From a virus, in IMG/VR virus record IMGVR_UViG_3300006923_000008, positions 41,987 to 105,986 of that record: a DNA stretch of 64,000 nucleotides; one strand, given 5' to 3'. The notes below the pieces were generated by a model. The model searched no databases and was not told where the DNA came from. It worked only from the letters and a program-made list of their open reading frames with translations. Position numbers and translations under genes: made by a program. Numbering within the stretch: position 1 is the first letter of the stretch; each line of letters begins with the position of its first letter. Positions 13,531 through 52,453 of the stretch are shown here, piece after piece.

Positions 13531-15176
13531 TGGCCAAAGATTTAACCTTTAAGAGTGAAGCAAGAAAGAAGATTCTTTCCGGCGCTGAAAAGTTAGCCAA
13601 AGTTGTGGCAGTAACGATGGGCCCTCAAGGAAAGAATGTAATTCTGGGCAAATATGTTGGAGCTCCAGTTCTCACTAAAGACGGAGTCACTGTTGCAAGG
13701 GAGATTACTTTAGAAGAGCCCGTAGAAGAGCTTGCGTGTCAACTCATAAAAGAGGTAGCGGGAAGGACGGCTGCCGTAGCAGGTGACGGAACCACTACAG
13801 CTACAGTTTTGACTCATGAAATTTTGAAGCGGGGATGTAAGCTTATTGATGAAAACTATAGTCCCTTGAACTTTAGGATTGGAATAGAGTGGGCTCTAAA
13901 ACAGATTACCAAGAATCTAAACACAATGGCTATCGATGTATCCTCCTTGGAGGATCTTGTGAATATTGCGTCAATATCTGCAAATAATGATCCGGAGCTT
14001 GGCAGCAAAATAGCAGAAGCATTTCATGCAGTAGGTATGGACGGAACAGTTGTTGCAGAGGCATTTCCTGGCGCAGGAAATTCTGTTAGATTTGCAGATG
14101 GAGTTGAAATAAAATCTGGATTTGTAACTCCTGCCTTCCTAACCGAAGAAGGCCAAACAGATGTTAGGCTTAATAATTGCAAAATTCTCATTTGCAATGA
14201 TGATATTTCAAATCTGACATCTTGCCTGGGGTTATTTAATCAATTATCTGAAGACAATATTCCCGTCTTAATCCTCGCCAAATCCGTAAAGCAGGAGGTT
14301 CTCGCTACTCTTGTTGCGAACAATAAGCTTGGTAGGTTGAGGGCTGTCGCTGTAAGCCTTCCGATATTTGGATCCGCTCAAAATGAATGGCTAGAAGCCC
14401 TCTCTGTTCTCGTCGGCACAAAAGTATTCTCAGGAGAAGGAGGCGTTCCCCTTAAGGAGGCCAAGGTTTCTGACCTAGGATCTGCCAAGAGAGTGACGGT
14501 TGATAGATATTCCACAAAAATATTAGAAGGAAATAGGGATCAGGCCAGATTCGAAGAAAAGCTTGAGCTTTACAAAAAAGACTTGTTGACGCTTATTGGA
14601 GACAATGAAAGGCTCGATACAAAAAAGAGGATAGCTTTTATCCAGAATAAAGCGGCAGTTGTTGCTGTCGGATATTCTACGGAGTTAGAGCTTAGGGAGA
14701 AGGGCGACAGGGTTGACGACTCTATTTGCGCAACAAGAGCTGCAATAGAAGAGGGGTACGTTCCTGGCGGAGGTACGGCTCTTCTTCGTGCGGCAAGTCA
14801 AGTAGATCTAAGCCTTCTGGATGAAGAGCTTGTTCCAGCCGCACGCGTACTCATAGACGCGTGTGAAAGGCCTATGCGACAAATTGCTGCAAATGCTTAT
14901 GCTGATGGCGATAAAATTGTGGACAAAGTATTGAAGAAGCTTAATAATAACTATGGATATAATGCTGCTACAAATTCATTTGAAGACTTAGTTAAATCAG
15001 GCGTTATTGACCCGAAAAAAGTTACAAAGACTGCTCTAGAAAACGCAACAAGCATATCTCTTTTACTCATAAATACTGACGCTGTAGTTTCCGAGCAGCC
15101 AGAAAATCCATCAAGCTGGCAGGCTCCTGCCGGCTGGAGGCCCCCTCAAGAGGGAACCTTAGCACACAAATACTAG
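13530..15176 (+). CDS. groEL: Phage GroEL-type chaperonin
   Basis: This is a 60-kDa chaperonin of 548 residues, the usual GroEL length. ATP-site residues are kept: D51 in TKDGVTVAREI, D86 in AGDGTTTATVL, and D397 in DDSICATRAA (E. coli D52, D87 and D398). The PGGGTAL loop is also present. The C-terminus ends in a Pro/Trp-rich segment (SSWQAPAGWRPP) instead of the Gly-Gly-Met tail. No GroES-like gene is visible in the window, so it may work without one, as reported for the Pseudomonas phage EL chaperonin, or may use host GroES. It is coupled to the RuvC gene by a one-base overlap and probably folds phage replication or capsid proteins. Confidence 0.97.
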   Translation: MAKDLTFKSEARKKILSGAEKLAKVVAVTMGPQGKNVILGKYVGAPVLTKDGVTVAREITLEEPVEELACQLIKEVAGRTAAVAGDGTTTATVLTHEILKRGCKLIDENYSPLNFRIGIEWALKQITKNLNTMAIDVSSLEDLVNIASISANNDPELGSKIAEAFHAVGMDGTVVAEAFPGAGNSVRFADGVEIKSGFVTPAFLTEEGQTDVRLNNCKILICNDDISNLTSCLGLFNQLSEDNIPVLILAKSVKQEVLATLVANNKLGRLRAVAVSLPIFGSAQNEWLEALSVLVGTKVFSGEGGVPLKEAKVSDLGSAKRVTVDRYSTKILEGNRDQARFEEKLELYKKDLLTLIGDNERLDTKKRIAFIQNKAAVVAVGYSTELELREKGDRVDDSICATRAAIEEGYVPGGGTALLRAASQVDLSLLDEELVPAARVLIDACERPMRQIAANAYADGDKIVDKVLKKLNNNYGYNAATNSFEDLVKSGVIDPKKVTKTALENATSISLLLINTDAVVSEQPENPSSWQAPAGWRPPQEGTLAHKY

Positions 15177-26034: not shown

Positions 26035-28884
26035 ATGGCACCAAAAAAGAGCGAAAAAGATTTATTTGAACAGTTAAAATCAAATTTTCTCGATTTCGAT
26101 CCTGCGCACTTTACTAAGAATAACCTAACTTTAGATGGAGCTGAATTTAACGTTTTAGATAACGGCTGGAAATTCATGTCCGATATCTATCGTTATATCG
26201 CACTTCAAGCAACAAGGCCCGATGGGAAGCCGGTTGTAATAAAGAAAGGTCGACAGGTTGGCGCCACTATGATGGCCGGAGCACTTGACCTGTTCTTTAC
26301 CAACAGTGGTCTGTTCACAGATCCGAATATTCGAGTGATTCACCTATTTCCAGCTTTAGGGCAGGTGAAGAAGTTTTCTCAGGATAAGTTAGAGAATCTT
26401 ATTCGAACCGCAAAAGATGACTTCATAACCAAAAACAAGCTAAATACTCCAAACTCCGTCGACAACCTTACGATGAAGCAGTTTAATACCGGAACCCTCT
26501 GGATAGACAGCCTTGGAACAGACGGAGACAGAATTCGTGGCATGACCGTTGATGTTGGCATTTTCGATGAGTGCTTTCCTTACGATCAGCATATAGAGAC
26601 ATCTGATGGAAAGGTTAAGATAGGAGAGCTATTTAGGCGATTTGAGGCCGGAGAAGAGCTTCCGATGGCCAGAACATTCAACGAATCTATAGAAAAGTTC
26701 GAATATAAGAAGATAAAAAAAGCTTGGAACAGAGGCTCCAAGGGCTTAGTTAAAATTACAGCTGGAAAGTGGCGAATAAAATGCACTGGAAACCACAGAT
26801 TCCTTACGAGTCGAGGATGGGTTCCTGCAGAAGAACTTTTGTCCGGAGATCTGCTCAAATCACGCAAAGAAGGAGCTCAGCGCTCCAGAGCTCTAAATGA
26901 TGATCAGAGGCAGCTAGTTCTTGGATCTTTTCTTGGAGATGGCCATCTTGATCGGACTTGTGACAAAGGCCATAGACTTATGGTAAATCACGGAGAGGCC
27001 CAGGAAGAGTATTGCAAATGGAAGTCAAAAATAATTAATGCGAATGTAACTAGAATTGAAAAAAATGGATTTAGCCAAAAGCCTGCGATAAGATTTTCCT
27101 CAAAAATGTTTTGTATGAACCTTGATCTCCCAAAGACAAAGTCTACTTGTCCACAAGAAGTGCTAGACGAGCTAGATGAGAGAGGTCTGGCTATTTGGTT
27201 TATGGATGACGGATCTGTAAACGCAAGGTGGAAGAGCTCTGCAGCCGGAACGTTGCACACCTCTTCATTTGATGAGGATTCTCAAAAAAGAATCGTTAAG
27301 AAGCTTAATTCTATGGGAATAAAGTGTCACTATTCAAAATACTTTTCAAAGCAGCGAAATAAACATTATTTTTACGTCCTCATTAACAAGGACGGATTCA
27401 AAAGCTTATCCGAATTAATCTCTCCATATGTGCATCCATCTATGTCACATAAGCTGCTAAAGCCATTTGCCGGAGAAACTTATAGCTGGAACCAAGATTT
27501 TAAGGAATACTCATGGACAATTGTCAATAATGTAACTCCCGTTGAGAAGAAAGAGGTCGTTTACGATATTGAGGTAGAAGATAATCACAATTTTATTTTG
27601 TCGTCAAGAAAAGGCTCAAGCGGAACCGGAGGTCCTATCGTTCATAATTGCCAAGAGATGTTGCCGCATGCAATCGGCAATGCAACAAAGATTTTAACTG
27701 CCGCAAAATACGGCCCTGTTGGTCAGGGGGTGCAGGTTTATTTTGGAACCCCTAAGAGCAAGAACAGTCACTTCGCAACAATATGGGGAACTTCAGATCA
27801 GCGCTATTACCATCTTGGGTGCATTAATTGCAAGAAGACTTATCCCTTTTATCTTCCAGATGATAATCGGTGGCAGTCAATTTGGTTATATGAAAACATA
27901 GTTCAATGCCCTCTTTGCGGAACAAAACAGAAGAAAATAGAAGCTATAGAACTTGGAAAGTGGGTGTCAACAAGGCCTTTTGAGGAATCCGACTTCGTTG
28001 GATTTCACATCAATCAGCTTTATATTCCATATTTTACAAAAGAAAATATAGAAAAGTTAATGCCGGAAAATAATCCTGCCCAAACAGAGCGAATCTGGAA
28101 AAATGAAGTTATTGGAGAGTTTTACTCTGGCGCAGGCTCCCCCCTTACTAAGGCAGAAGTTTATAACTTATGCAGGGATCCGGATAGATATTTTGCAAAA
28201 TCTATTAGCTCAAAGGAAAAAACTGTTTATCTTGGTTCTGACTGGGGTGGAAAAGATGACGATCCTAATTCAAGAGGAGGGCAGTCCTTCTCTTGTGTAG
28301 TCGTTCTGTCTGCAAGTCCAGATGGGATCTTATCTATAGAACACGCCCATAAGTTAAAGAAGAATACATTTGATTTTAAAAAAGATACTATAAAAGAGAT
28401 GTATCGAAGGTTTGGTGTAACGAGAGGCGTATCAGACTGGTTCTTTGGACAAGACGTTGTTTCGGATCTTCAATTAGTATACGGAGATAGGTTTCTTGGA
28501 GCTCAAGGAAGTGGAAGCTTGGCCAAACCAGTAAAATATAGAGAGGATGAGCTAATTATTTCTTATAATAAAGATTTATTAATTGACGAATTAATTGAGC
28601 TGTTTAGAAAGGGAAAGGTTAGATTTCCATGGAAGAGCTATGAGCACATGGAGTGGCTCATTGATCACTGCACATCTATGGAGACCAAAATAAGGACATC
28701 CGGAGGTCAGCCCATAAAGACTTACGTCAAGGGAAACTCGCCAAATGATGGATTTATGGCGCTAATATACGCCTATATGGCGTATAAATTCGACCTAACC
28801 AAGGGGTTCTCTATGAGGCCTGGGCTAGATAAAAGACTCGAATATCCAAGGCCTGTAATCGCGAATATTAAGAGGAGAATTTAA
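26035..28884 (+). CDS. terL: Large terminase subunit containing an intein
   Basis: This is the ATP-driven DNA-packaging motor and nuclease. The precursor has 949 residues; removing the 359-residue intein leaves 590, normal for TerL. The Walker A-like motif is GRQVGAT (R73-T78). Walker B is VGIFDE, with D178 and E179 directly before the intein at C180. The C-terminal RNase H-like nuclease carries D736 in YLGSDWGG, a later acid near VSDWFFGQD, and NSPNDGFMAL. A zinc-like set (CINC, CPLC) occurs after the intein. Because the intein splits the ATPase active site, splicing should be required for packaging. It starts directly at the end of the preceding gene and is followed 2 nt later by the portal gene. 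Confidence 0.96.
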   Translation: MAPKKSEKDLFEQLKSNFLDFDPAHFTKNNLTLDGAEFNVLDNGWKFMSDIYRYIALQATRPDGKPVVIKKGRQVGATMMAGALDLFFTNSGLFTDPNIRVIHLFPALGQVKKFSQDKLENLIRTAKDDFITKNKLNTPNSVDNLTMKQFNTGTLWIDSLGTDGDRIRGMTVDVGIFDECFPYDQHIETSDGKVKIGELFRRFEAGEELPMARTFNESIEKFEYKKIKKAWNRGSKGLVKITAGKWRIKCTGNHRFLTSRGWVPAEELLSGDLLKSRKEGAQRSRALNDDQRQLVLGSFLGDGHLDRTCDKGHRLMVNHGEAQEEYCKWKSKIINANVTRIEKNGFSQKPAIRFSSKMFCMNLDLPKTKSTCPQEVLDELDERGLAIWFMDDGSVNARWKSSAAGTLHTSSFDEDSQKRIVKKLNSMGIKCHYSKYFSKQRNKHYFYVLINKDGFKSLSELISPYVHPSMSHKLLKPFAGETYSWNQDFKEYSWTIVNNVTPVEKKEVVYDIEVEDNHNFILSSRKGSSGTGGPIVHNCQEMLPHAIGNATKILTAAKYGPVGQGVQVYFGTPKSKNSHFATIWGTSDQRYYHLGCINCKKTYPFYLPDDNRWQSIWLYENIVQCPLCGTKQKKIEAIELGKWVSTRPFEESDFVGFHINQLYIPYFTKENIEKLMPENNPAQTERIWKNEVIGEFYSGAGSPLTKAEVYNLCRDPDRYFAKSISSKEKTVYLGSDWGGKDDDPNSRGGQSFSCVVVLSASPDGILSIEHAHKLKKNTFDFKKDTIKEMYRRFGVTRGVSDWFFGQDVVSDLQLVYGDRFLGAQGSGSLAKPVKYREDELIISYNKDLLIDELIELFRKGKVRFPWKSYEHMEWLIDHCTSMETKIRTSGGQPIKTYVKGNSPNDGFMALIYAYMAYKFDLTKGFSMRPGLDKRLEYPRPVIANIKRRI
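26572..27648 (+). mobile_element. Intein with LAGLIDADG homing endonuclease in TerL
   Basis: The intein has 359 residues, C180 to N538 of the precursor. Block A starts CFPYDQHIETSDG, block B has the TGNH motif (KCTGNHRFLTSRGW), block F is VYDIEVEDNHNF, and block G ends IVHN before C539. Two LAGLIDADG helices are visible: LGSFLGDGHL and AIWFMDDGSV, each ending in an acid. It can excise itself and, through the endonuclease, invade intein-less terL alleles. Both splice-site nucleophiles and the penultimate His-Asn pair are intact, so it should be active. Confidence 0.95.
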
Positions 28885-28886
28885 AG

Positions 28887-31109
28887 ATGAGAAGAACAGG
28901 TAAGCCCCCTACTCCTCTGACGAAAAAGACTGCAGAGTCTATTTCTGAAGTGCGTCGTGCTCAGATCTCAGACGCAGCAAATAAGCAGATGGACAGAGAT
29001 GAGAATCAGTCTCCGATTGGAGCTATAGCTCACAGCTCTAATTTTAGAAAGAAGAGTTTAAATCTAATAAAGAGTGGATCAATATCCTCTCCTATGCCGG
29101 GGCCCACAGTTTCGTCCACTTCCGATAGAATGTCCCCAGAGATATATTCTCCTCTATTCCAGCTTGCAAACCTGAATCTCCCAAGAGATCGGGTGACGAT
29201 GAACGCCTGGAATCGCGTTTTTTACGACACGCATCCTCTCGTTAGAAACGCAATAAATCTTCACGCATCATATCCTATAAGCAAGATTAATATCACATGT
29301 AAAAACAAAAAAGTTCAACAGTTCTTCATGGAGATGGCAGAAAAGATTGATTTATACTCAATTGTTTACGGAGCAGCATTGGAGTTCTGGAAATTGGGCG
29401 AAGCATTTCCCTATGCAGAGCTAGATGAGCAGGCGGGAATCTGGAAGCGAATCACAATCTTAAACCCTGATTACGTCCATGTTAAGAAGACAGTTATTGG
29501 AAACAATACAATAGTCTCCTTGAGACCTGACGCAACTCTTCAGCGACTGGTAAACTCAACCTCTCCTGCCGACTTGTCTATGCGAAAATTCATACCCAAG
29601 CATATCTTGAACTATGTTCGTCGTGGTCAAAACATTCCTCTTGATGAATTTAACGTTTCTCACCTAAAGCTATTGAGTTCTCCGTATGATATCCGAGGCA
29701 CATCCGTTATCGTCTCTATATATAAAGACCTGATGCTCTATGATCGGCTTAGGGAATCAAAGTTTGCACAAGCAGACGGAATGATAAACCCCCTGACTCT
29801 GGTTACCCTTGGAGGAGAAGGCGACTATCGTCCAACCCAATCTGACATTGAGGCCTTTAAGAATCTTTTGGAAGAAGCTCAATATGATAAAGACTTCAAG
29901 ATTGTAACCCACAATGGCGTTAAGATCGAACGCTCTGGCTTCTCTGGCTCGACCCTAGATATCGGAACTGATATTGAGCATATCGTTACAAACATTTACG
30001 CAGGCCTCATGACTCCAAAGGCATTAATGGATCAGGAAAGCTCCTGCCTTAAGGTTTCTGATAATGAGATCTTAACGGAGTCTAGTGGGTGGAAGTTCTT
30101 TGATGATCTAAAAGAAGACGATAAAATCGCTACAGTAAATCCCGAAACACAGGCTTTGGAGTTTCATAGGCCAACATTTTATAAAGACTTTAAGTTTACA
30201 GGAATGATGTATGCATTTAAGAATCAGAATGTTGATGTTGAAGTAACTGATTTTCACGAAATGTATCTCTCTAAAGATGGGGGAGCAACTTATCAGAAGA
30301 GTCGTGCTCTGGAGGTCTTTGATATTGACGAGATTAATTCTGACGAGAAGTTCGATATTAATCATGAAAACAATGTTCTCTTTATGACAACAATTGATAA
30401 CCTAACACCTACTGATCCTGATTCCAAATTTGTTACAGCAATGGTTCGTCCTAGTGATGTAACTATTAATTGGGTTAACGAAGAAAGAGTATTCTGCGTT
30501 GAAGTTCCTAATCACGTATTTGTAACCAGACATAATGGCAAGGTTGCTATACATGGAAACACATACGCGTCATCGTCTGTCGGTCTAGAAGTTTTGCGTC
30601 AGAGATATGATATTTTCAGAAATATGATTAAGAAGTGGCTTGAGAGAAAGGTCTTCGCCCCAATCTGTGAGATACAAGACTTCTTTGAATACAAAGATGG
30701 GGAGAAGAGACTTCTTGTTCCGTCAATTGACTTTAACCACATGAATCTTTACGATATGGCCGACTTTATAACTTCTGTTGGACAGTTTGTTGGAAACCAG
30801 CAAGTTTCACTGCAGACTCTGCACAGAAGTCTTGGCCTTAGCTATGAAGAGGAGCGTAGAAGAATTCGAGAAGAAATGATCGATAATCAAATCTTTGCAA
30901 AAGAGCAGCAAGTCCTTGGAGGCATGAAGCTTGCAGAGCTGCAGAGTCTTGATCCCTCTAAGTCAATCACTGAGCCGCCTGGAACAGAGACTGCTGGCGG
31001 AGCAGAGGGCGGTCTTCCCGGTGTAGAAGATGCAGGAGGAATGGAAGGCATGGAGGGAATGGGTGGAGAAGCGCCCGATATGGGAATGCCCCCAGAGGGA
31101 GTTATGTAA
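28887..31109 (+). CDS. Portal protein containing a mini-intein
   Basis: The precursor has 740 residues and 568 after removal of the intein. The exteins show portal features: helical clip and stem regions, and the conserved run around VTNIYAGLMTPKALMDQESS joining TYASSSVGLEVLRQRYDIF. The C-terminus is Gly/Met-rich. The protein forms the dodecameric DNA gate at the capsid vertex and docks the terminase encoded just upstream. The assignment rests on position after terL, size and overall pattern. It starts 2 nt after terL. Confidence 0.88.
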   Translation: MRRTGKPPTPLTKKTAESISEVRRAQISDAANKQMDRDENQSPIGAIAHSSNFRKKSLNLIKSGSISSPMPGPTVSSTSDRMSPEIYSPLFQLANLNLPRDRVTMNAWNRVFYDTHPLVRNAINLHASYPISKINITCKNKKVQQFFMEMAEKIDLYSIVYGAALEFWKLGEAFPYAELDEQAGIWKRITILNPDYVHVKKTVIGNNTIVSLRPDATLQRLVNSTSPADLSMRKFIPKHILNYVRRGQNIPLDEFNVSHLKLLSSPYDIRGTSVIVSIYKDLMLYDRLRESKFAQADGMINPLTLVTLGGEGDYRPTQSDIEAFKNLLEEAQYDKDFKIVTHNGVKIERSGFSGSTLDIGTDIEHIVTNIYAGLMTPKALMDQESSCLKVSDNEILTESSGWKFFDDLKEDDKIATVNPETQALEFHRPTFYKDFKFTGMMYAFKNQNVDVEVTDFHEMYLSKDGGATYQKSRALEVFDIDEINSDEKFDINHENNVLFMTTIDNLTPTDPDSKFVTAMVRPSDVTINWVNEERVFCVEVPNHVFVTRHNGKVAIHGNTYASSSVGLEVLRQRYDIFRNMIKKWLERKVFAPICEIQDFFEYKDGEKRLLVPSIDFNHMNLYDMADFITSVGQFVGNQQVSLQTLHRSLGLSYEEERRRIREEMIDNQIFAKEQQVLGGMKLAELQSLDPSKSITEPPGTETAGGAEGGLPGVEDAGGMEGMEGMGGEAPDMGMPPEGVM
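30045..30560 (+). mobile_element. Endonuclease-free mini-intein in the portal protein
   Basis: The intein has 172 residues, C387 to N558 of the precursor. Block A begins CLKVSDNEILTESSGWK and includes DDKIATVNPET. Block B contains VEVTDFHEMYLS, block F is VFCVEVPNHVFVTRH, and block G ends VAIHGN before T559 as the +1 residue. No LAGLIDADG or HNH motif is present and the length is that of a minimal splicing domain, so it cannot home by itself. The penultimate residue is Gly, with the His one further upstream (H-G-N), an unusual variant that may slow splicing. Confidence 0.85.
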
Positions 31110-32516: not shown

Positions 32517-33062
32517 ATGGATAAAAAATCTTATAGAAATAAGCGATTGGAAAGATTGAATACCGAATTCAATTTAAATTTGCCAGGGCAAGCGTCTGGC
32601 GAAGAAGGGCTCTCTGGAGATGCTGGAAATGGAGTAGGAAGAGGCTTGGTCATGCCAGGAGAGTCAGTAATGCCTGCAACTCATTCAGAGGCCGAAGATC
32701 GTGAAGAATTTCCAAAGAAAAAACGAAAAACACATGACTTAGAGTATGATAAGCTCCTAGCTCTTCTAATAGATCTTTCTGATGGAATGGACAAGCAGGA
32801 GGAATACAGGTATTCTAACTTTGCAGATTTTTTAATTCAGAAAATAGCACAACAAAAAAATTTAGACTACCAAGTTCTTCTGAAAGATCTGCTTATAAAA
32901 ATCAATAATTCTGACATTATGGGAAAACAATCTCTTATAAAGTCGATTGTAAAAGAATATAACTCTTTGTTAATAGAGTCTGTGGAAGATGGAGGGTCCG
33001 AATCAGAAGCTCATAATGCCGCATATCATGTAGTCGCACAGATGGTGGTAGGTCATGTTTGA
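32517..33062 (+). CDS. Unknown helical protein
   Basis: The ATG at 32517 lies one base after the preceding stop and is preferred over an in-frame TTG 21 nt upstream. The protein has 181 residues. The first 75 are polar and Gly/Glu-rich, and the rest is helical (DKLLALLIDLSDGMD, YQVLLKDLLIKIN). It overlaps the next gene by 8 nt. The function is unknown; the context is the head module. Confidence 0.72.
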   Translation: MDKKSYRNKRLERLNTEFNLNLPGQASGEEGLSGDAGNGVGRGLVMPGESVMPATHSEAEDREEFPKKKRKTHDLEYDKLLALLIDLSDGMDKQEEYRYSNFADFLIQKIAQQKNLDYQVLLKDLLIKINNSDIMGKQSLIKSIVKEYNSLLIESVEDGGSESEAHNAAYHVVAQMVVGHV

Positions 33063-33381
33063 GTATAGCGCAAGACAGTTGAGCGACCCCGAGCTTATTA
33101 AGGAAGCGCAAATGCTAGAACAGAATGCGGTATATGTTGCAGAGCAACTTCATAACATCATTAAGATAATGATTAGCGGCATGGCCCCAGAGTCTAGAGG
33201 AAAGTCTTTTCACAATATTAAAAATAAAATTTCTGAATTTAATAGAATGGAACTTTCCAACAAGAAGAGTCCAGGCGGAGCTTCTATCGGCGTCAGCTTG
33301 GGTCTTATTAAGAATGTGTTGAATAGTAAGGATCCTTATTTCATAAATATCGTTTTAAGTGAATTATCTTCCAGATTATAG
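33055..33381 (+). CDS. Small unknown helical protein, 108 residues
   Basis: An ATG embedded in the end of the upstream gene starts a 108-residue protein that is helical throughout (LIKEAQMLEQNAVYVAEQLH). No family is recognised. A 39-nt gap follows that holds a weak AT-rich hairpin (TATTTTA/TAAAATA, about 33393-33411) just before the next gene. Confidence 0.72.
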   Translation: MFEYSARQLSDPELIKEAQMLEQNAVYVAEQLHNIIKIMISGMAPESRGKSFHNIKNKISEFNRMELSNKKSPGGASIGVSLGLIKNVLNSKDPYFINIVLSELSSRL

Positions 33382-33420: not shown

Positions 33421-35697
33421 ATGAACAAAGTATCTTGGCCATATACAGGAAGTGCAGAAGCGGAAATGGGCTCGATGTCTCCCAAGGGGGATTACTCAGA
33501 TATCGAAGGGCCTAATGATTTCGGAGACTTTTCTACGCAGAATTACGGTTTATTAGACCATCAAAAAAGCTCCGGCCCAGAACATCAGGTTCCAACTTCG
33601 TATTCAGAGGGCATGCTCTCTCCTCTTCAGGATTCCGCAGATGATATGGAGGCCGATGATAAAGAGGATGAAGACCTAGATGTCTTAGCAAGTGCCTTCT
33701 GCTCTTTAATGAGAAAGGGCTCTAATATTCTTGGAATAGGAAGACAAAGCATTCCGGCCCTTAACTCATTGGCGGCTAGAGGTCATAACGTAGTTTCTTT
33801 ACAGAAAGATGCTTATCCTCATGGAGTTAATCTCTTAAGCTTTCCTGTAGAAGCTAGCGATCCAATGTTTTATAAGGGAAGATATAAGCTGGATGGAGTT
33901 TTGTCCGAATCATCCTTCGATAACGCAGAGGTTGCCGAAATATCTTTGAGAAACATTTACAGCCAGATGAGGCCTATGGCGTATGGCCTCATTGTCTCTA
34001 ATGGCTCTTTTGATCTTGAGACTATAGTTAAAAAGTGTAATTTTGAAATTATCAAAAAGCATTCGGGCGAAACTACGAAGTTTTTAATAAAGAAAAATGA
34101 TTTAAACAAAATTGCAGTTATTCGATATTACAATTTAGACAAGAAGGAATTATCCATATTTGAATGTGACGTTGCAGATACCCATATGGAGCGAACAATA
34201 GGCCTGCAGGCCTACTCGGGCCTCTTAGATAGATGCGGGTTGATCTTTAAGTACAGCAGGCCTACAGACGTGATGTTTCACATGGGAACTGTCAACTTTC
34301 CTATTGATGTTGCTTTTCTAGATGAAAATGACACTGTTGTTAAGCTCTGCAGAAATATAGAGCCTGGATCTCTAGAGATATTTGGATCGGCCAATACAAA
34401 GACAGTTTTGGAACTTTCTGCCGGAGCAGCCAAAGAGATAGGCATCGAGATTGGAGAGAAATTATTCTTAAATTATGGAGAGCAGATCTCTGAAACTTTT
34501 AAGAAAGAATCTCGAATACTAGAGGCGGCAGGGCTAGATAGATGTATTTACAAAGAGTCCTCTTATGCAGAGAACTCTTTTTATAACCTTTATAACTTCA
34601 ATTTATATTTGAAAAATTCAGAAAATACAACAGCAACATCTCTTATTAAAAACGCTAAGAATTACAATGTAGAAAAAACTAAAGTCATTTGTTATGATTT
34701 GAATTTCATCTTTGACTCAAAAGAGGCAAGCCTATATAGACGGGAAGAGACTAGCGATCTTACTAAAATTGCGGTAAGTCTATTCGGAGAGACATTTTCT
34801 ACAAAGGGGGACTTTATAAGAGTTTCAGAAGAAGCTCTTATCGAAAATGGTTTCTTTGGAAAAATTAACAGAAAATATGCCCTTGATGCTCTAAAATATG
34901 CTCGAAGCATTAATGCTAACGAACATGAGGATCTATATTTGAAGCGCATCTATAAAGATTCGTCTAATATTTTAAGCAAGATCTCCTTTATATATAGAGG
35001 CGATCTAAATATCAAGTTAGCAACAGAGCTTTTAAATGCAAAAATAAGAGGAATTACCCAAGATGAAAGCTTTTCCTTGAATGCGGACTTCATAAGAGTT
35101 CCTCGAAATTTTGATGATAATAACTGTCTAAGCGCACTAGCGAGCAGATATCCTAATTGCAGCACTCTCCTGAGGGCTGGGGAGCTCTCCAAGGCGGCTG
35201 GAGCTCCAGTTTCTGATCACACAAAAGAAGTTGCAAAAAAGGCAGCAAGATATTTCAGTAGGGCAAAAGACTCTTGCACGGAGCTTGCTGATAATCTTAA
35301 TCAAAATGTTTCTGTTTATCAGCAGCTGGCTGATAAGCCGGGCGTAATCAAGAATAGCAAGGGTGAGTACAGAGAGTCCTGCAAACGTAATTCTAAAATT
35401 GCGAAGAAATGCCTTCTCAACATTCAGGAGGGAATTAGAATCCTGAACGAGATACAAGACGCTTCTACAACTGAGGAGATAATAAGTAGTATCGCTGGGT
35501 CTTCGAAATCATTTTCAGACTCTATAAAGGATGTCTTTGATCTCTCAGACAATCTTGGCTCTCCAGACTTCGTACAAACTCTAGACTCCAATACTGGCAT
35601 TACCGTTATAGCTCTAAAAGATCTAAGGACTATTCTCGATAGAGCAAAAGAGTACATAACGAAAAACATTTTGGGTATGATAATACTATCCAATTAG
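33421..35697 (+). CDS. Multidomain protein with methyltransferase-like and DUF192-like domains
   Basis: The protein has 758 residues. The first 80 are polar and acidic. Residues about 100-215 have a Rossmann-like methyltransferase pattern (ILGIGRQSIPALNSLAARGH, then GVLSESSFDNAEVAE, then MAYGLIVSNGSF), though the glycine motif is weak. Residues about 254-354 match the DUF192 fold: RTIGLQAYSGLLDRCGLIF, then PTDVMFHMGTVNFPIDVAFL, then VVKLCRNIEPGSLEIF, ending VLELSAGAAKEIGIEIGEKL. The last 330 residues are helical with no recognised domain. DUF192 proteins are usually small secreted bacterial or archaeal proteins of unknown role, so finding one inside a head-module gene is odd. A virion or host-modifying role is possible. 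Confidence 0.8.
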   Translation: MNKVSWPYTGSAEAEMGSMSPKGDYSDIEGPNDFGDFSTQNYGLLDHQKSSGPEHQVPTSYSEGMLSPLQDSADDMEADDKEDEDLDVLASAFCSLMRKGSNILGIGRQSIPALNSLAARGHNVVSLQKDAYPHGVNLLSFPVEASDPMFYKGRYKLDGVLSESSFDNAEVAEISLRNIYSQMRPMAYGLIVSNGSFDLETIVKKCNFEIIKKHSGETTKFLIKKNDLNKIAVIRYYNLDKKELSIFECDVADTHMERTIGLQAYSGLLDRCGLIFKYSRPTDVMFHMGTVNFPIDVAFLDENDTVVKLCRNIEPGSLEIFGSANTKTVLELSAGAAKEIGIEIGEKLFLNYGEQISETFKKESRILEAAGLDRCIYKESSYAENSFYNLYNFNLYLKNSENTTATSLIKNAKNYNVEKTKVICYDLNFIFDSKEASLYRREETSDLTKIAVSLFGETFSTKGDFIRVSEEALIENGFFGKINRKYALDALKYARSINANEHEDLYLKRIYKDSSNILSKISFIYRGDLNIKLATELLNAKIRGITQDESFSLNADFIRVPRNFDDNNCLSALASRYPNCSTLLRAGELSKAAGAPVSDHTKEVAKKAARYFSRAKDSCTELADNLNQNVSVYQQLADKPGVIKNSKGEYRESCKRNSKIAKKCLLNIQEGIRILNEIQDASTTEEIISSIAGSSKSFSDSIKDVFDLSDNLGSPDFVQTLDSNTGITVIALKDLRTILDRAKEYITKNILGMIILSN

Positions 35698-35705
35698 GCG
35701 CAAAT

Positions 35706-35891
35706 ATGTTTATAAAATTTAGTGATAAAACAAAGAAAATCATAGTGAAAACATCTAAGGATGGATATAGTAGTGAGCTCAATGAAGACTTCGATACTAT
35801 CAATTTATATAAGAAAAGTGACAGCAAAGATGTGGATGATAGAAGAATTGAGATTCTAAATACCTACCTAGATGATGATGAAGCCGAATAA
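35706..35891 (+). CDS. Small acidic protein, 61 residues
   Basis: A short frame with AGGCG upstream of the ATG, 8 nt after the preceding gene. It has a basic first half, an acidic second half and an acidic tip (DDDEAE). No family is recognised. It could be a real small virion-module gene; its size and coding-like codon use favour this only moderately. Confidence 0.55.
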   Translation: MFIKFSDKTKKIIVKTSKDGYSSELNEDFDTINLYKKSDSKDVDDRRIEILNTYLDDDEAE

Positions 35892-35977: not shown

Positions 35978-38900
35978 ATGATAAAGAAGATATGCTTTTC
36001 TCCAAATAATTACGATATAGAGACACATACGCACGAGGCCGTATGTGCAAATCCTGTTATCGTAAAACGATTTACAAAGTTGGCAAAAAGCCTTCGTAAT
36101 ATTGCTCCCAAGTCTGACGACTTTCTATATTTTTCGATCATTTTTTTAAAGGCCGCAGAGTCAGCCCTTATAGACGGAGAGGGAAAGATAAAGAAAGTAG
36201 GAAAGGAAGACGCCTGGGGCTTTTTCGATCAAAACTGGAAGTGGCATGGCAATGTTCCTGCTCACAAAAATAATAATTCCGATATATTCCCCGAATCTGA
36301 GCTAAAAAAGGCTACATCAAAATGGATAGGCCTCCCGCTTTGTAGAGACCACGAATCAAGCTCTGTAGACGGAATACGAGGAATCATTCTAGATACCCAT
36401 TACGATGAGAAGTTTAAGCAGGTCGTTGGACTCTGCGCCCTTGATAAGGTCAACTATCCAGACCTTGCCAGGAAGGTTGAAACCGGAATGGTTCGATACG
36501 GATCAATGGGTACAGCAGTAGAAACCTCTATCTGCTCAGATTGCCAAAACAAAGCAACAAATCAAAATGAATACTGCAAGTGCATCTCAAGCAGGGCTGC
36601 TCATGGAGAGGTCAATGTTGGGCTCAAGCCAATTGAGTACAGCCTAGTGGTTCAGCCTGCAGAGCCTGGAGCAGTCCTTCTAAAGTGTATAGCCTCCTTG
36701 CAGGAATACAAAAAAGAATTTACAAATTATGGTGTAGACAATGTTTCTGAAATGTTAGGAAGGCTTAGCCTTAAGCAAGCGGAACATTTGGATGGCATAA
36801 TGAAAACTGCCTGCGGAGATAATAGCTGCTCCGTAGATGATAGAGACCGTATTGTAAGAAGTTTTCTAGAAAATAATGGTCTTTTAAAGACTTCATTTAC
36901 TGACGAATCAGAAGAGGCAAGAAACATAGCAGAAACCCTAAAGACAATGCCCGATGCGGCTAGTCTTTTGGGAGATCCAAATGTCAATGATGATGTCAAG
37001 AGAGTCATCAAGATGCTTATGGGGGAGCTGGAAGAGAAATTCCGACCAGATCTCTCTGGCACAAACAGAGAGGAGTTTTCATCTTATGAAAACTCAGACG
37101 GAAGAGGTCCAGGCGATGTTGCAGAGCAAAGCGCTGCAACATCTAGAATAGGACTTCTTGGCGGCGGAGATACAGGGGACCAGCCTGACTTCGCTGGTGA
37201 TGAGGATGATATTTTAAGTTTTCCGGCCAGTGGAGAGCCCGCTGTTTCGGTAATTAGCAGTAAGCAAGATCAACACGTTAAAACTGCCAATAATGGTGAT
37301 AGCAGCGATTTTGTTAACGACTTTTCAATTAATTCAATAGTGGAGGATATTATGAACGAGTCAAGATTGAGGAAGAGAGCTGAGCTACGCCGTAGAATTG
37401 CTTACATGCAGGGCGGCTCAGAGGGTGCGGAGCCTAACACATTTAAGAGTGAGCCTACCGATGCGCAGAGCAAAGATAAGCAAATGCTACAGACAGGAAG
37501 CATGGGCGGAGATTCCGGCATGTTCCCTGGCGACAAGGAGACAAAGGAGAAGCTGAGTCGAGCTCAACTCCAAGAGCGTAAGCTAAAGCGTTTGGCTTAC
37601 ATGCAAGGCGGATCCGAAGGCGCTGAGCCCAACACCTACAAGAGTGAGCCGCAAACTTATGGCGATGACAAGCACATGCTACAGACAGGAAGCATGGGTG
37701 GAGATTCCGGCATGTTCCCTGGCGACAAGGAGGTCAAAGAGAAGATGAGCCGAGCAGCTTACAATGGCCCCGGGCTAAGCACAAGATTCTCTGTGAAAAG
37801 AGCTCTCAATGGAGCCGTAGACAAGAAGGCGAGTCTCCTAGAGGTTTTTGCTGGAGACAAGAGGGTGATCGCGGCTACTGGCCAAGAGATCTTTGGGCCC
37901 AGCCTAGAGGATAACTGGGAGTGGCTAAAGAGCCGTGATTACGGTCGCGAGGTTTGTTCTCAAATTCGCATTGCTGGATTAACTCATGTTACCAGCTTGC
38001 TTAAGACTGCTCAGGAGTTGCCTGCTGCACCGGAGGAGGCTGCTATGCCTCCAATGGAAGCAGAAATGCCGATGGAAGCAGAAATGCCGATGGAAGACGA
38101 AATGCCGATGGAGCTAGACGCTGAAATGCCGATGGACGAAGAGCCGGAAGAGCCCGGAACTGCAGTCGACAATAGGCTGGCTGAAATGGAGCAGCTAATC
38201 GATGAGGTCAGAGATCTTGTTAGCGAGCTTGAGGATGGAAGGACTGCAGATGTAGACGTCAATGTCTTTACCGGAGAAGAAGGCGCTGCTGCAGAGGGTG
38301 CTGATGCAGAAATGACAGCACTATCATCTAAGATGCTTACCAATCTGAAGACGGCCTTCGAGCGTCTTGATGGATCTGCAGATGAGCTCTCTATGGTGGC
38401 AGAAACCTTTGATAATATTAGCAAGCTATCCTCTGCTCAGAAAATTGAGTTTAGAAAGCTTGCAAGTGATGCGATTAAGGACGCTGATAGGGCGACCGGT
38501 GAGGCGAAGGCAATTGTTCGACTTGCAATGGATATGGCAGAAGATTTCGCTCCGACAGAGGATATGGCTGTGGATTCAACTGTTAATCTTGCTGATGACC
38601 TTATGGATGATCCAGCAGCGGAAGAACCAATGGAAGACCTCGCGGATGATGGCACAGAAGAGCTGGTTACTGCGGCTATGCAGCTAAGAAGGGATCGCCG
38701 GGAAGCCATCCTAAAGCAAGCGGAAAGTAGATTCGCAGCCGACAAGCTAAATAAGAAAGCAATGGACGAAGACTCTGACGAAATGGGAGCAGAATCCTGC
38801 GCTGACGATGCGGTTGTTAACGAAGCTGCTGATGCGGTTGTTAACGAAGCTGACGATGCGGTTGTTAACGAAGCTGCTGATGCGGTTGTTAACGAAGCTG

Positions 38901-39292
38901 AGGATGATCTAGAAGTTGAGGCTTCCGATAAGAGTGGAGCACTAAAGGCTGCGCTTGCGAGTAAGATGGAAGAGAAGCGTGCAAATGAAGCTAGGGAAGA
39001 ATATCGAATCAAGCTTCGTAGAGCGTATGATGTTGGTCTAGAAATGCAAACCAAGGGTCTGTTGCCGTCATCTAAGGCTTCTTTGGACCGACAGGTAGAT
39101 GAGATCATGTCTTTCGACAACAATGCCTTTGAGGCGTTTAAGAGGAGCATTGCAAGCGCACGCTCAGTTGGGACAGTTAAGATTGCATCTGATCTCGGCG
39201 GCCTAAATATTGGCGTTAAAACTGAAGATAACACTGCAAGCGTGCCGGGGCCTATGTCTGCCGATTCCCTATCTTCACTCTGGGACGAGTAA
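35978..39292 (+). CDS. Prohead protease fused to acidic scaffold
   Basis: The protein has 1104 residues. Residues about 60-240 resemble a phage prohead protease: H125 in PLCRDHESSSVDG and S176 in RYGSMGTAVE lie 51 residues apart, as in HK97-type serine proteases. A cysteine cluster (CSDCQNK, CKC) near 186-205 could bind zinc. From about 460 onward the protein is a scaffold-like acidic region with repeats: a duplicated 60-residue Gly/Met block, Met/Glu/Pro repeats near 690, and four 8-residue repeats near 945-975, then a coiled C-terminus. Protease-scaffold fusions cut themselves out of the prohead. An internal start at 37352 could make the scaffold alone. Confidence 0.8.
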   Translation: MIKKICFSPNNYDIETHTHEAVCANPVIVKRFTKLAKSLRNIAPKSDDFLYFSIIFLKAAESALIDGEGKIKKVGKEDAWGFFDQNWKWHGNVPAHKNNNSDIFPESELKKATSKWIGLPLCRDHESSSVDGIRGIILDTHYDEKFKQVVGLCALDKVNYPDLARKVETGMVRYGSMGTAVETSICSDCQNKATNQNEYCKCISSRAAHGEVNVGLKPIEYSLVVQPAEPGAVLLKCIASLQEYKKEFTNYGVDNVSEMLGRLSLKQAEHLDGIMKTACGDNSCSVDDRDRIVRSFLENNGLLKTSFTDESEEARNIAETLKTMPDAASLLGDPNVNDDVKRVIKMLMGELEEKFRPDLSGTNREEFSSYENSDGRGPGDVAEQSAATSRIGLLGGGDTGDQPDFAGDEDDILSFPASGEPAVSVISSKQDQHVKTANNGDSSDFVNDFSINSIVEDIMNESRLRKRAELRRRIAYMQGGSEGAEPNTFKSEPTDAQSKDKQMLQTGSMGGDSGMFPGDKETKEKLSRAQLQERKLKRLAYMQGGSEGAEPNTYKSEPQTYGDDKHMLQTGSMGGDSGMFPGDKEVKEKMSRAAYNGPGLSTRFSVKRALNGAVDKKASLLEVFAGDKRVIAATGQEIFGPSLEDNWEWLKSRDYGREVCSQIRIAGLTHVTSLLKTAQELPAAPEEAAMPPMEAEMPMEAEMPMEDEMPMELDAEMPMDEEPEEPGTAVDNRLAEMEQLIDEVRDLVSELEDGRTADVDVNVFTGEEGAAAEGADAEMTALSSKMLTNLKTAFERLDGSADELSMVAETFDNISKLSSAQKIEFRKLASDAIKDADRATGEAKAIVRLAMDMAEDFAPTEDMAVDSTVNLADDLMDDPAAEEPMEDLADDGTEELVTAAMQLRRDRREAILKQAESRFAADKLNKKAMDEDSDEMGAESCADDAVVNEAADAVVNEADDAVVNEAADAVVNEAEDDLEVEASDKSGALKAALASKMEEKRANEAREEYRIKLRRAYDVGLEMQTKGLLPSSKASLDRQVDEIMSFDNNAFEAFKRSIASARSVGTVKIASDLGGLNIGVKTEDNTASVPGPMSADSLSSLWDE
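37352..39292 (+). CDS. Nested scaffold protein from an internal start (candidate)
   Basis: An in-frame ATG at residue 459 of the protease-scaffold gene is preceded by GTGGAGG (37340-37346) with a 5-nt spacer, a site better than many true starts here. It would give a 646-residue acidic protein starting MNESRLRKRAELRRRIAYM, exactly where the repetitive scaffold region begins. Phage lambda makes its scaffold Nu3 by the same device inside the protease gene C. Translation from here is inferred, not shown. Confidence 0.5.
   Translation: MNESRLRKRAELRRRIAYMQGGSEGAEPNTFKSEPTDAQSKDKQMLQTGSMGGDSGMFPGDKETKEKLSRAQLQERKLKRLAYMQGGSEGAEPNTYKSEPQTYGDDKHMLQTGSMGGDSGMFPGDKEVKEKMSRAAYNGPGLSTRFSVKRALNGAVDKKASLLEVFAGDKRVIAATGQEIFGPSLEDNWEWLKSRDYGREVCSQIRIAGLTHVTSLLKTAQELPAAPEEAAMPPMEAEMPMEAEMPMEDEMPMELDAEMPMDEEPEEPGTAVDNRLAEMEQLIDEVRDLVSELEDGRTADVDVNVFTGEEGAAAEGADAEMTALSSKMLTNLKTAFERLDGSADELSMVAETFDNISKLSSAQKIEFRKLASDAIKDADRATGEAKAIVRLAMDMAEDFAPTEDMAVDSTVNLADDLMDDPAAEEPMEDLADDGTEELVTAAMQLRRDRREAILKQAESRFAADKLNKKAMDEDSDEMGAESCADDAVVNEAADAVVNEADDAVVNEAADAVVNEAEDDLEVEASDKSGALKAALASKMEEKRANEAREEYRIKLRRAYDVGLEMQTKGLLPSSKASLDRQVDEIMSFDNNAFEAFKRSIASARSVGTVKIASDLGGLNIGVKTEDNTASVPGPMSADSLSSLWDE
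37398..37744 (+). repeat. Two imperfect direct repeats of about 145-150 nt in the scaffold
   Basis: The blocks at about 37398-37551 and 37597-37744 both encode YMQGGSEGAEPNT, then SEP, then MLQTGSMGGDSGMFPGDKE. The second half is nearly identical at DNA level (37486-37535 against 37679-37728). This looks like a domain duplication in the flexible scaffold region. Confidence 0.85.
38807..38902 (+). repeat. Four 24-nt tandem repeats in the scaffold
   Basis: Four nearly identical in-frame units begin at 38807, 38831, 38855 and 38879, each encoding DAVVNEA plus Ala, Asp or Glu. They alternate between GCT-GCT and GCT-GAC endings, which suggests duplication of a two-unit block. A second microrepeat encoding EAEMPM lies at about 38052-38135. 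Confidence 0.9.
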
Positions 39293-43835: not shown

Positions 43836-44843
43836 ATGACAAATCTATTTAACACACATGGTGAGATCAATGCCTCTAACGTACAAGAGGCTCTATCACA
43901 GATCGTCAAGTATGCTTCAATCATCGAAGATCTTCAGCCGTCAAGTAACGCTCAGGCCGCAGCGCCTAGCCTAAATGATGGTCAGAGAGATGAGATGATC
44001 AAGCAGGCTCTAATGACGCAAGAAGGCAAGATTGCTCTAGGTCAAGCGATGGCGAACCCGATTCGTCGCAACCTTGACTATCAGGGTGTGGCGCGTAAGG
44101 CTCTCGTAGTCGATCCGCTTCCCCAGGGTGCTCTTCCGGTTTACGACCGTGATATCGATGTAGCGGCTGTTGTTGTTTCCAGCAACGGTGCAGCTCCTGA
44201 GTCACGCGTATTCGGTGACCGCGTAAACGTTCCCGAGTTTGAGGTTGTCTCAAACCCGACCGTTCGCATCGCGGAAGTCAAGCGTCGTCGGTTCAACGTG
44301 ATCGATCGTGCCCAGCAGAAGGCTCGTCAGGAAATTCAGGCTCACGAGGATGCTAACGTATTCTCCGCGCTTGAGTTCGCTGGTGACTCTACTCAGGGTG
44401 GTGAGAACGCGGCTGTAGACCTATCCCCCGCTGGTACTTCACTTGAGAAAGACGGTCTCATCAACCTCAAGCGCCAGATTGACCGCTGGGACTTGGTAAC
44501 CTCCAAGTACTTCCTAAACATCAATGAGTTCACCGACATTCTCACCTGGGAATCTGCTGGTAACACAAACTCACAGGTTGACCCCGTCACCCAGCGTGAG
44601 TTGCTACAGACCGGTCTTTACGGCCACGTCTTTGGCGCTGACATCATTGTGTCCAAGGTTGTTCCTTCAGGCCGTGCATTCGCTTGTGCGGATCCTGAGT
44701 TCGTCGGCGTAATGCCTGTCCGTCAGGACATCGAGGTACTACCTGCTGATGAGCCGAAGCAGCTGAAATTAGGTTGGGTCGTGAATGAAATAATCGGAGT
44801 CGGTATTGTTAACCCCCGAGGCGTTGCAACTGGTACTGTGTAA
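43836..44843 (+). CDS. Major capsid protein (HK97 fold)
   Basis: The protein has 335 residues. Features of the HK97-fold capsid protein are a helical N-terminal arm (about 1-80), then QGALPVYDRDIDVAAVVVSS, the long spine-helix region KVKRRRFNVIDRAQQKARQE in outline (about 147-175), a P-domain around GLINLKRQIDRWDLVTSKYF, and a beta-rich C-terminus typical of the A-domain (FGADIIVSKVVPSGRAFAC). The gene has capsid-like, more GC-rich codon use, an AGGAG site and a strong terminator after it. It should form the icosahedral shell around the scaffold made upstream. Confidence 0.9.
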   Translation: MTNLFNTHGEINASNVQEALSQIVKYASIIEDLQPSSNAQAAAPSLNDGQRDEMIKQALMTQEGKIALGQAMANPIRRNLDYQGVARKALVVDPLPQGALPVYDRDIDVAAVVVSSNGAAPESRVFGDRVNVPEFEVVSNPTVRIAEVKRRRFNVIDRAQQKARQEIQAHEDANVFSALEFAGDSTQGGENAAVDLSPAGTSLEKDGLINLKRQIDRWDLVTSKYFLNINEFTDILTWESAGNTNSQVDPVTQRELLQTGLYGHVFGADIIVSKVVPSGRAFACADPEFVGVMPVRQDIEVLPADEPKQLKLGWVVNEIIGVGIVNPRGVATGTV

Positions 44844-45055: not shown

Positions 45056-46495
45056 ATGAATCTAAAAACATGCAAGACTTGCACGACCGAAAAAACTATC
45101 GATCAATTTCCAAAGAACAAAAGCAATAAAGACGGACTCAGCAGTGATTGCAGCATTTGCAGAAACCAGAAAAACAGAGATGCATATAAAGCAAAAAAGG
45201 AAAAGGAGAGACTCCTTAATCCAAAACCAACCGCAAGGGACGGCTATAAAATTTGCTATAGCTGCAAAGTAGAAAAACCACTTTCTAAATATGGAAAGAA
45301 TAAGCATATCGTTGGAGGTCTTGAAAATAAGTGCAAAGACTGCAGAAATGCATACCAAAAGTCTTTGAACGACAAAAAGAATTCAAAGAAGGCAGCAAGG
45401 AGAAATCTTTCTGCTCCGAGTGGGCATAAGATTTGCAAAAAGTGTAATTCAGCAAAGCTATATTGTGATTTTGGAAAAACAAAACTAACGAAAGATGGCC
45501 TAGAGGGCTCCTGTCGAGATTGCCGTAAGGCAAAGAGGGCTAAGGCTGCTGCCAAAAAACAAGGGAAAATTGCTGTAGGCATAATACGTTTAAGCAGCAA
45601 AACTTGTTCAAAGTGTAAAAAAACCCTGGACATCAGCTCCTTCTCAAGCGATGCAAGTCGTGGTGATGGATATGAAACAAAGTGTAAGCCATGCAAACGC
45701 GGTGCCTATAAAAACTATTATGCTGAAAACGTTGAGTTAATTGCAGAGAGATCAAAAGTAAGATTTGAGAATAACAGAGAAGAAATTCTTGCTAAGAATA
45801 AAAAGAAATATCATGGTAACGAAGCCTTTAGGGTCAAGGAGATCAAAAGGCGAAGCAAATATGGCCAAACATTTAATGGTAGATTTTCCGCATACAGATC
45901 TTCGGCTAAGGCTCGCAATATAGAGTTCAATTTATCTGAGGAGCAATTCAAATCCTTCTGGCAGAAGCCTTGCAATTACTGCCATTCCGAAATAGAAACG
46001 ATTGGAATAGATAGAGTCGACTCAAGCGGATCCTACGAAATGGACAATTGTGTCCCCTGTTGCACCTATTGCAACTATATGAAGAATGATTTATCCACGG
46101 AAGCCTTCTTCTCTCATATCTGCAAGATTCAGCAGTTCTCCGAAGATGGAATCACAGAAAATAGAAGGCCGAGAATCTTCAAGACCGGAAATGCAAAGAA
46201 CGATTATCACCGTACTGTTGATGGAAAATTTGCTCACTATAAGAGCGGTGCCAAAAAAAGAAATATCGATTTCCTATTATCGAAAGCCCAGTTTGAGGAA
46301 TTCTGGCAGCAATCCTGCAGTTATTGCGGATCCACAATTAACACGGTTGGGATCGACAGAATTGATTCATCAAAACCCTATAGCCAAAGCAACTGCACGC
46401 CCTGCTGCACTACTTGCAATTCTATGAAAAATGATAAATCTGAAAAAGATTTTAAGCGCCAAATTTCTTTGGTTTATAGAAGCGTTTCCTGCTGA
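45056..46495 (+). CDS. HNH endonuclease with four zinc knuckles and two HNH domains
   Basis: The protein has 479 residues. Four N-terminal CxxC...CxxC modules begin near residues 6, 67, 126 and 188; each follows the pattern K-x-C-x2-C-x(n)-F-x(n)-G-x(3-5)-C-x2-C. Two homologous HNH-like domains follow, at about 275-350 and 395-465. Both contain SYCG or NYCH, GIDR(V/I)DSS and CC-x2-CN-x2-KND. It is a free-standing homing endonuclease by type and place, just behind the capsid gene with its own promoter. The fourfold DNA-binding repeat plus doubled nuclease is unusual; most HNH homing enzymes have one nuclease domain and about 150-250 residues. It would spread by cutting DNA of related phages. 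Confidence 0.88.
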   Translation: MNLKTCKTCTTEKTIDQFPKNKSNKDGLSSDCSICRNQKNRDAYKAKKEKERLLNPKPTARDGYKICYSCKVEKPLSKYGKNKHIVGGLENKCKDCRNAYQKSLNDKKNSKKAARRNLSAPSGHKICKKCNSAKLYCDFGKTKLTKDGLEGSCRDCRKAKRAKAAAKKQGKIAVGIIRLSSKTCSKCKKTLDISSFSSDASRGDGYETKCKPCKRGAYKNYYAENVELIAERSKVRFENNREEILAKNKKKYHGNEAFRVKEIKRRSKYGQTFNGRFSAYRSSAKARNIEFNLSEEQFKSFWQKPCNYCHSEIETIGIDRVDSSGSYEMDNCVPCCTYCNYMKNDLSTEAFFSHICKIQQFSEDGITENRRPRIFKTGNAKNDYHRTVDGKFAHYKSGAKKRNIDFLLSKAQFEEFWQQSCSYCGSTINTVGIDRIDSSKPYSQSNCTPCCTTCNSMKNDKSEKDFKRQISLVYRSVSC

Positions 46496-50866: not shown

Positions 50867-52453
50867 ATGTTATCAAGAGCAAGTAGAATTAAGGATTTAC
50901 TCAAGGAAGCGGCAGTAAGCGTTGAAAAGCAAGAAAGCAGAGATAAGTTCTCTGAATTATTTCCTGTCGAAAATGCAAATATGATGTTTTCTTTTTCGGA
51001 TCAATATTATTCAGCATTTCGAAGCAACTTCGGATCCAATGAGGAATATCTTCAAAGCATAAATCAATTCAAAGGCAAGCCAAAGGAAGAGATCATTGCT
51101 GCAATTCGCAGCGGAGGTGTATCGAAGAGTCCGAAGGACTTGGAAATTGACAAGGCAAATGCAACTCATCCACAGCTAAAAGATCCGGAGCATGTCAAGG
51201 GATTGGAGACATTAAAGAAGTCTGAAGTTAATCCGAGATATTATCCCTGGATTTTCAAGATGCTTTTTAATGAAGAAGCGGATCCGATAGAAGAAATCAT
51301 AAAAAGCGTTTTATTTTACCAAAGAAATCCGGAGCAGCTTGAGAAGCCATTGGAATCCTTTAATCTTCTCTCCGAATTAAGAAGCTATTTTGATGAAAAA
51401 CTTGCTTCAAATAAAGAATATTATTATTCAAAAATAGAAAAACACGCTCTGGATCCGAAATATACGGATTACATTTATCAATCGGATGACTTCATCACAG
51501 TTTTGAGTGGAACCACTCAATCCTCTCAGTATTGGGCCAGGGGAACCACTTGGTGTACTTCTTATCTTAAAGGAAATAAGTTTGCAAATTATGCTTCAAA
51601 AAATATTTACCTTTATTACGTAATAACAAAGCAAGATTCGGAATTTTTTGAGAAATCAAATCCGATGAGAAAAATATCTATTGGATTTACCAAAAGAGAT
51701 GGAAAGCCGCAGCTTTTAACGAATCAAAATGCTACAGTCAATACAGATAATCGTGATTTAAGCTTGAACCAAATTCAAGAATATTTGGGATCCGAAGCGG
51801 ATTCGATAATTTCGGCTATCTATGCGGATATAGGCAGAAGAGAAGATACGAAATTCAATAAAATAATAGCAGAAACAACTCCGGAGGAATTGGAACTCCA
51901 GATTGCAGCAATCAATGATGATTCTCAGATAGCAAGCATTTTGCTGCAATTTACGCAAAATAATGCGGCAAGAGCGGATACGAAAAAGGTTGCCGCAAAG
52001 AATTTGGCAGAGAAAAGTCCTGAAGAGTTCTTTGGTTATGGCCTGCACAAGACTCCTGAATACGCAGAGTTTAAAATACCTGCCGCAAAGAATTGCGCAG
52101 AGAAAGATCCTATATGCTTCTTTCATTACGACCTACATGAGATTCCTGAATACGCAGAGTTTGGAATACCTGCCGCAAAGAATTTGGTAGAGAAAAAGCC
52201 TAAACGCTTCTTTTCTTATGGCCTACATAAGCTTCGTGAATACGTAGAGTTTGGAATACCTACCGCAAAGTATTGGGCAGAGAAAGATCCTGAAGAGTTC
52301 TTTTATTACGGCCTACATAATATTCCTGAATACGCACATCTTAACCCAAAGAACAAAGCTCCCGAAGAAAACAAACTCCAACCTCTTGAAGCGTGGCTCC
52401 GCACCAACGGCTTCAGAAAAGAGGCAAAAGAGCTGTCCGCATTACTCTGTTAA
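50867..52453 (+). CDS. Unknown phage protein with WCT motif and four tandem repeats
   Basis: The protein has 528 residues. Residues 1-180 are helical. The middle (about 195-330) contains WARGTTWCTSYLKGNKFANY, then NIYLYYVITKQ and KISIGFTKRDGKPQLLTNQN, a layout seen in phage proteins with a conserved Trp-Cys-Thr motif and no proven role. Residues 376-495 are four 30-residue repeats (consensus AAKN-x-AEKDPEEFF-x-YGLH, then IPEYAEFGIP). The last 20 residues carry the G-x(3)-EA helix (LRTNGFRKEAKELSALL). It opens the accessory island. Confidence 0.8.
   Translation: MLSRASRIKDLLKEAAVSVEKQESRDKFSELFPVENANMMFSFSDQYYSAFRSNFGSNEEYLQSINQFKGKPKEEIIAAIRSGGVSKSPKDLEIDKANATHPQLKDPEHVKGLETLKKSEVNPRYYPWIFKMLFNEEADPIEEIIKSVLFYQRNPEQLEKPLESFNLLSELRSYFDEKLASNKEYYYSKIEKHALDPKYTDYIYQSDDFITVLSGTTQSSQYWARGTTWCTSYLKGNKFANYASKNIYLYYVITKQDSEFFEKSNPMRKISIGFTKRDGKPQLLTNQNATVNTDNRDLSLNQIQEYLGSEADSIISAIYADIGRREDTKFNKIIAETTPEELELQIAAINDDSQIASILLQFTQNNAARADTKKVAAKNLAEKSPEEFFGYGLHKTPEYAEFKIPAAKNCAEKDPICFFHYDLHEIPEYAEFGIPAAKNLVEKKPKRFFSYGLHKLREYVEFGIPTAKYWAEKDPEEFFYYGLHNIPEYAHLNPKNKAPEENKLQPLEAWLRTNGFRKEAKELSALLC
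51992..52351 (+). repeat. Four exact-length 90-nt tandem repeats
   Basis: Units begin at 51992, 52082, 52172 and 52262, all 90 nt and in frame, with strong but imperfect identity (GCCGCAAAGAAT opens three, ACCGCAAAGTAT the fourth). Each encodes one 30-residue helical repeat. Confidence 0.93.

Follow-up and report, generated by a model that had tools for sequence, protein, structure and literature searches.

A 64,000-nucleotide stretch of viral DNA (the window), part of a 105,986-base IMG/VR record (IMGVR_UViG_3300006923_000008), encodes a 758-residue protein of the head module that carries a DUF192 domain, raising the question of what such a domain does among phage head and packaging genes. 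DUF192 (COG1430; PF02643) is an already known family, present in 25 of 60 and 26 of 61 bacterial genomes sampled from two phyla, and no known function for it was found in the open-access literature. That literature, searched with a coverage that stops short of most subscription journals and preprints, likewise yielded no report linking DUF192 or COG1430 to phage genes; the phage subfamily, the embedding of the domain in larger proteins and the genomic linkage described below were not found in it.

A DUF192 domain within a large protein

The protein consists of an N-terminal tail, a methyltransferase-like region, the DUF192 domain, a middle alpha/beta domain and a C-terminal helical bundle, in that order (Table 1). 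The original prediction placed a DUF192 domain at about residues 254-354, and this is borne out by a PF02643 match at residues 247-348 (73.1 bits, with the cut-off at 27; E = 2.1e-20; profile positions 1-94 of 96). Two solved DUF192 proteins, 3m7a (3.5e-6) and 3pjy (2.4e-5), were also matched by phmmer. In an AlphaFold2 model of residues 231-758 built from 31 sequences (mean pLDDT 82.6), the DUF192 part has the fold of solved DUF192 proteins: 3pjy (7.4e-8; TM-score over the target 0.80) and 3m7a (4.4e-7) were the only PDB matches below 0.001 in a Foldseek search. An earlier model of the whole protein from seven sequences was poor overall (pLDDT 55). The middle alpha/beta domain gave no clear PDB match when the predicted model was searched with Foldseek.

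In sequence profile and predicted fold, the domain thus resembles cellular DUF192, and an aspartate (residue 296) and a glutamate (residue 331) are retained. DUF192 is normally a small stand-alone cellular protein, often secreted; here, however, it is internal, no hydrophobic leader or signal peptide is visible in the 758-residue sequence, and the domain is followed by about 410 residues instead of the 330 first estimated. The proposed embedding of DUF192 in a large head-module protein is therefore genuine and unusual, and its tie to the head and packaging module is consistent across relatives. A Cys-His catalytic dyad (C249, H287) was considered and set aside, as one clade of related phage proteins, encoded between terminase and portal genes, retains the histidine but not the cysteine.

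Table 1. Coordinates, in the window, of the DUF192-bearing protein, its parts and the surrounding head-module genes.
Feature	Position	Strand	Basis
Large terminase with LAGLIDADG intein	26035..28884	+	phrog_675, E = 1.9e-53; Intein_splicing, E = 5e-16
Portal protein, phage G type	28887..31109	+	phrog_16240, E = 1.6e-42; Bacillus phage G gp14, about 33% identity
108-aa protein directly upstream of the DUF192 gene, conserved neighbour in the window clade	33055..33381	+	
DUF192-bearing head-module protein, 758 aa	33421..35697	+	ATG start; ORF call, layout matched in relatives
N-terminal tail, residues 1-84, predicted unstructured	33421..33672	+	pLDDT < 50
Class I methyltransferase-like region, residues about 85-226, without motif I	33673..34098	+	Foldseek PDB, motif test
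DUF192 domain, residues 247-348, phage-specific FHMGxV form	34159..34464	+	PF02643; fold match 3pjy/3m7a
Middle alpha/beta domain, residues about 375-592	34543..35196	+	Predicted model, Foldseek
C-terminal bundle of long helices, residues about 599-750	35215..35670	+	Predicted model; conserved in the window clade
61-aa acidic ORF between DUF192 and protease genes, similar in relatives	35706..35891	+	
Prohead protease/scaffold	35978..39292	+	phrog_18299, E = 7.4e-11; matches phage G gp19 and gp21
Major capsid protein	43836..44843	+	51% identical to phage G gp27

The position of the gene between portal and protease, as initially proposed, is confirmed by the identities of both neighbours. The surrounding genes form a head module of the type found in Bacillus phage G (Donellivirus gee), with homologous capsid, portal and protease (the last 33% identical to gp19) in matching order. 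Phage G differs in that small genes after the portal are followed by the protease without an intervening DUF192 protein. Phage G, LR745208, Myrna, E3 and Skog have no detectable DUF192 in any part of their sequence, and a hidden homologue sought in the head modules of phage G, Myrna, E3 and Skog was not found; a homologue of the methyltransferase-like region was not found in these four modules either.

Several further features of the window were recorded. The match of the portal to phage G is broken by an insert at residues about 385-556, which by eye resembles a second intein. The 61-residue ORF is below the usual size cut-off, and the stretch between it and the protease gene is AT-rich, with a similar stretch in relatives. 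Upstream of the protease gene, a candidate late promoter of the T4 type (TATAAATA) was rejected, because the window holds five matches where 4.35 are expected, which is not significant. Within the protease/scaffold itself, a segment repeated in two copies (YMQGGSEGAEPNT...LQTGSMGGDSGMFPGDKE) resembles the GSMxPxGD of the N-terminal tail of the DUF192 protein, and the two may possibly share an assembly or cleavage motif. Elsewhere, the window encodes a GroEL-like chaperonin (13530-15176; phrog_5725, E = 5.6e-129), a 479-residue protein that matches endonuclease VII/HNH families in several stretches (45056-46495), and an ORF (50867-52453) with an internal 90-base tandem repeat of 3.8 copies (51991-52336).

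A phage subfamily beside terminase and portal genes

Phage proteins related to that of the window carry a distinct form of DUF192, in which the cellular motif FWMKxT is replaced by FHMGxV. The conserved cellular WMKxT segment is absent from this form; it is a feature of subfamilies rather than a requirement of the Pfam profile, and the PF02643 cut-off was passed by all 50 related records tested. Across three main phage clades, histidine occupies the tryptophan position in 76 of 78 members (the other two have tryptophan), methionine, aspartate and glutamate are invariant, and valine stands where cells have threonine. By comparison, 57 cellular DUF192 domains, collected from two phyla with the profile, have tryptophan in 53 cases, threonine in 54 and histidine in none; this unbiased set replaced a first one that was biased by the search pattern (carried by 77 of 80 sequences). 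The subfamily also stands apart from cellular DUF192 in a tree of 114 domains, where 57 of its 58 rows fall on one branch (SH-aLRT 100; length 0.99). A scan of 84,980 bacterial and archaeal genomes found no member, with seven pattern matches and no relatives among them, for a motif ([MT]FHMG[STK]Vx[FY]) that divergent cellular members could escape. The phage proteins are also much longer, with a median of 675 residues compared with about 190 for cellular DUF192 open frames.

The architecture of the window protein is shared by viral contigs of up to 232 kb, and a query built from a domain-only alignment (with the virus Rctr197k included) retrieved 80 IMG/VR loci. In 77 of these, a terminase or portal homologue is found no more than 6.15 kb from the DUF192 gene (median 3.5 kb) and always on the same strand. 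The loci do not count as independent events, since the phages have a portal lineage in common and several contigs nearly duplicate one another. Three gene orders occur, namely TerL-portal-DUF192-protease (as in the window), DUF192-TerL-portal and TerL-DUF192-portal-protease, and separate branches of the domain tree correspond to them. Two of the other three loci have a protease gene just downstream, leaving a single locus without a recognized packaging neighbour; there, a lone DUF192 gene (L105:9914-10276) adjoins a tRNA nucleotidyltransferase-like gene. Outside the window clade, the domain is N-terminal, central or C-terminal in proteins of 120 to 1,377 residues, and no additional Pfam domain was found in nine of ten such subfamily proteins scanned. 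DUF192 is the part common to all these phage proteins, while the remainder varies.

DUF192 in other phages

Among 50,697 annotated phage records searched by tblastn, DUF192 was found in seven distinct phages (Rctr197k, three cyanophages, two crass-like phages and Eggerthella phage LE2-3) and in one 16 kb record that looks bacterial (MT835876) and was set aside; its DUF192 protein has a lipoprotein-like leader. In all seven phages, the domain is encoded among structural or packaging genes. The protein of Rctr197k (Rctr197k_042; 435 aa) also belongs to the FHMG subfamily and is encoded two genes upstream of the terminase, but has no methyltransferase-like region and differs in gene order and flanking domains. 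In the T4-like cyanophages S-SM2, Bellamy and SynMITS9220M01, DUF192 lies inside the T4-GC119/phrog_727 protein (618-708 aa), encoded directly upstream of the terminase gp17; this is a different host protein (with DUF6321), and its DUF192 forms a separate branch of the tree. In some cyanophages, T4-GC119 is described as belonging to a mobile cassette (PMC3037559). The DUF192 gene of LE2-3 stands alone between terminase and portal, in the opposite orientation. Most crass-like rows and those of Bellamy and LE2-3 fall outside the subfamily branch; Bellamy, like the phage subfamily, has histidine at the tryptophan position, and the histidine in Bellamy and LE2-3 suggests convergence.

The crass-like phages (MT835470, MT835492 and related viral loci), labelled as such from gene content and TAG recoding rather than formal classification, encode a small DUF192 protein of about 190-210 residues, which retains the cellular WMKxT and forms a separate branch. 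Its gene is located among virion structural genes in conserved order, with the succession of virion structural protein, 568-aa-type protein and DUF192 kept in nearly all loci examined. A cargo tag shared between proteins was sought in these loci and rejected, as no protein other than the DUF192 protein was found to carry its C-terminal extension. In MT835492, the DUF192 frame is open only if TAG codes for an amino acid.

Candidate roles of the protein

The methyltransferase-like fold proposed upstream of DUF192 has some support from predicted structure but none from sequence profiles: in the seven-sequence model of the whole protein, of only moderate confidence there, residues about 85-226 match many class I methyltransferases in Foldseek (E about 1e-6; probability 1.00), whereas Pfam methyltransferase profiles gave no match at E <= 1 in the 758-residue protein. 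Among the relatives, 39 have a stretch of methyltransferase length ahead of DUF192, in some cases too divergent for a profile derived from the window, and none of the 39 has the SAM-binding motif I ([DE]xGxG); nine others lack the region. Most of these nine retain the N-terminal tail and, if the gene is complete, the C-terminal bundle; the tail, whose motifs near SWPW..G...EMGSM.P.GD and Y..G..SPV are kept in relatives, is conserved even where the region is missing. The region is therefore probably non-catalytic, since motif I is lost and the region can be dispensed with, and on the same grounds an active SAM-dependent methyltransferase with DUF192 as its substrate-binding domain was rejected as highly improbable, despite the structural matches. 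The original suggestion of an enzyme of an unrecognized type is likewise not supported, given these two observations together with the replacement of the cellular tryptophan, lysine and threonine.

An effector packaged in the head, delivered into the cell along with the DNA and directed at a host target, with DUF192 as the active part, would account for a multidomain product encoded between portal and protease, for fusions to enzyme-like folds (methyltransferase-like here; nucleotidyltransferase-like in another locus, L104) and for the mostly small, stand-alone form of cellular DUF192 proteins. It is nonetheless unlikely, as the residues conserved in cells are replaced in the phage form and the protein has neither an evident catalytic signature nor a demonstrated ejection signal. 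A chaperone or scaffold cofactor that assists assembly of portal, protease and capsid and is absent from the virion would fit both the adjacency to protease/scaffold and portal genes and the long C-terminal bundle; proteins of up to 1,377 residues are, however, large for a transient factor, and although no observation made here distinguishes this reading from a virion component, it is considered rather improbable. Quite improbable, too, is an accessory cargo gene (moron) that lies in the late operon by chance and serves host physiology or defence. The rarity of DUF192 in annotated phages, the lone opposite-strand gene of LE2-3 and the insertion of the domain in T4-GC119, which PMC3037559 assigns to a mobile cassette in some cyanophages, are compatible with such a gene, but linkage to terminase and portal on the same strand persists over three gene orders and large sequence divergence.

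Judged from sequence and gene context, the protein probably belongs to virion assembly and is not a stray enzyme from cells. A structural or assembly role is favoured over an enzyme of the cellular type because of the linkage to packaging genes, the sharing of DUF192 by otherwise differing proteins and the rebuilt motif, while the ability of related phages without DUF192 (phage G, Myrna, E3 and Skog) to build heads counts against it, as does the L105 locus, where no packaging gene is recognized nearby. Its gene position suggests a component of the virion close to the head or portal, an assignment with about an even chance of being correct. Such a protein would be made with the prohead as a minor component and then kept in or near the head or portal. 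Its DUF192 beta-barrel may be a conserved module for binding or assembly, with a partner in the head, the portal or the packaging machinery. The domains around it would be lineage-specific, and the methyltransferase-like region may be a non-catalytic remnant that serves as a scaffold.

More broadly, and somewhat less than evenly likely, DUF192 may be a recurrent virion module of tailed phages, acquired independently several times by the head or packaging genes of phage G-like large phages, crass-like phages, T4-like cyanophages and an Eggerthella phage, with a phage-only subfamily whose cell-conserved residues were rebuilt for a portal or head partner; the number of acquisitions is not firmly fixed by a tree of 125 columns with weak deep forks. 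A lineage that keeps DUF192 beside terminase and portal while the remainder of the protein changes provides a concrete handle on the binding partner of this fold. It also points to an unrecognized component of the machinery that builds the heads of large phages, of which crass-like gut phages have versions of their own. Other roles are hinted at by a subfamily member (L104:8702-10720) that joins DUF192 to a region resembling nucleotidyltransferases (Polbeta, E = 0.0014; NTP_transf_2, E = 0.0025; both below cut-off) and is encoded near a nucleotide-sugar epimerase and a terminase.
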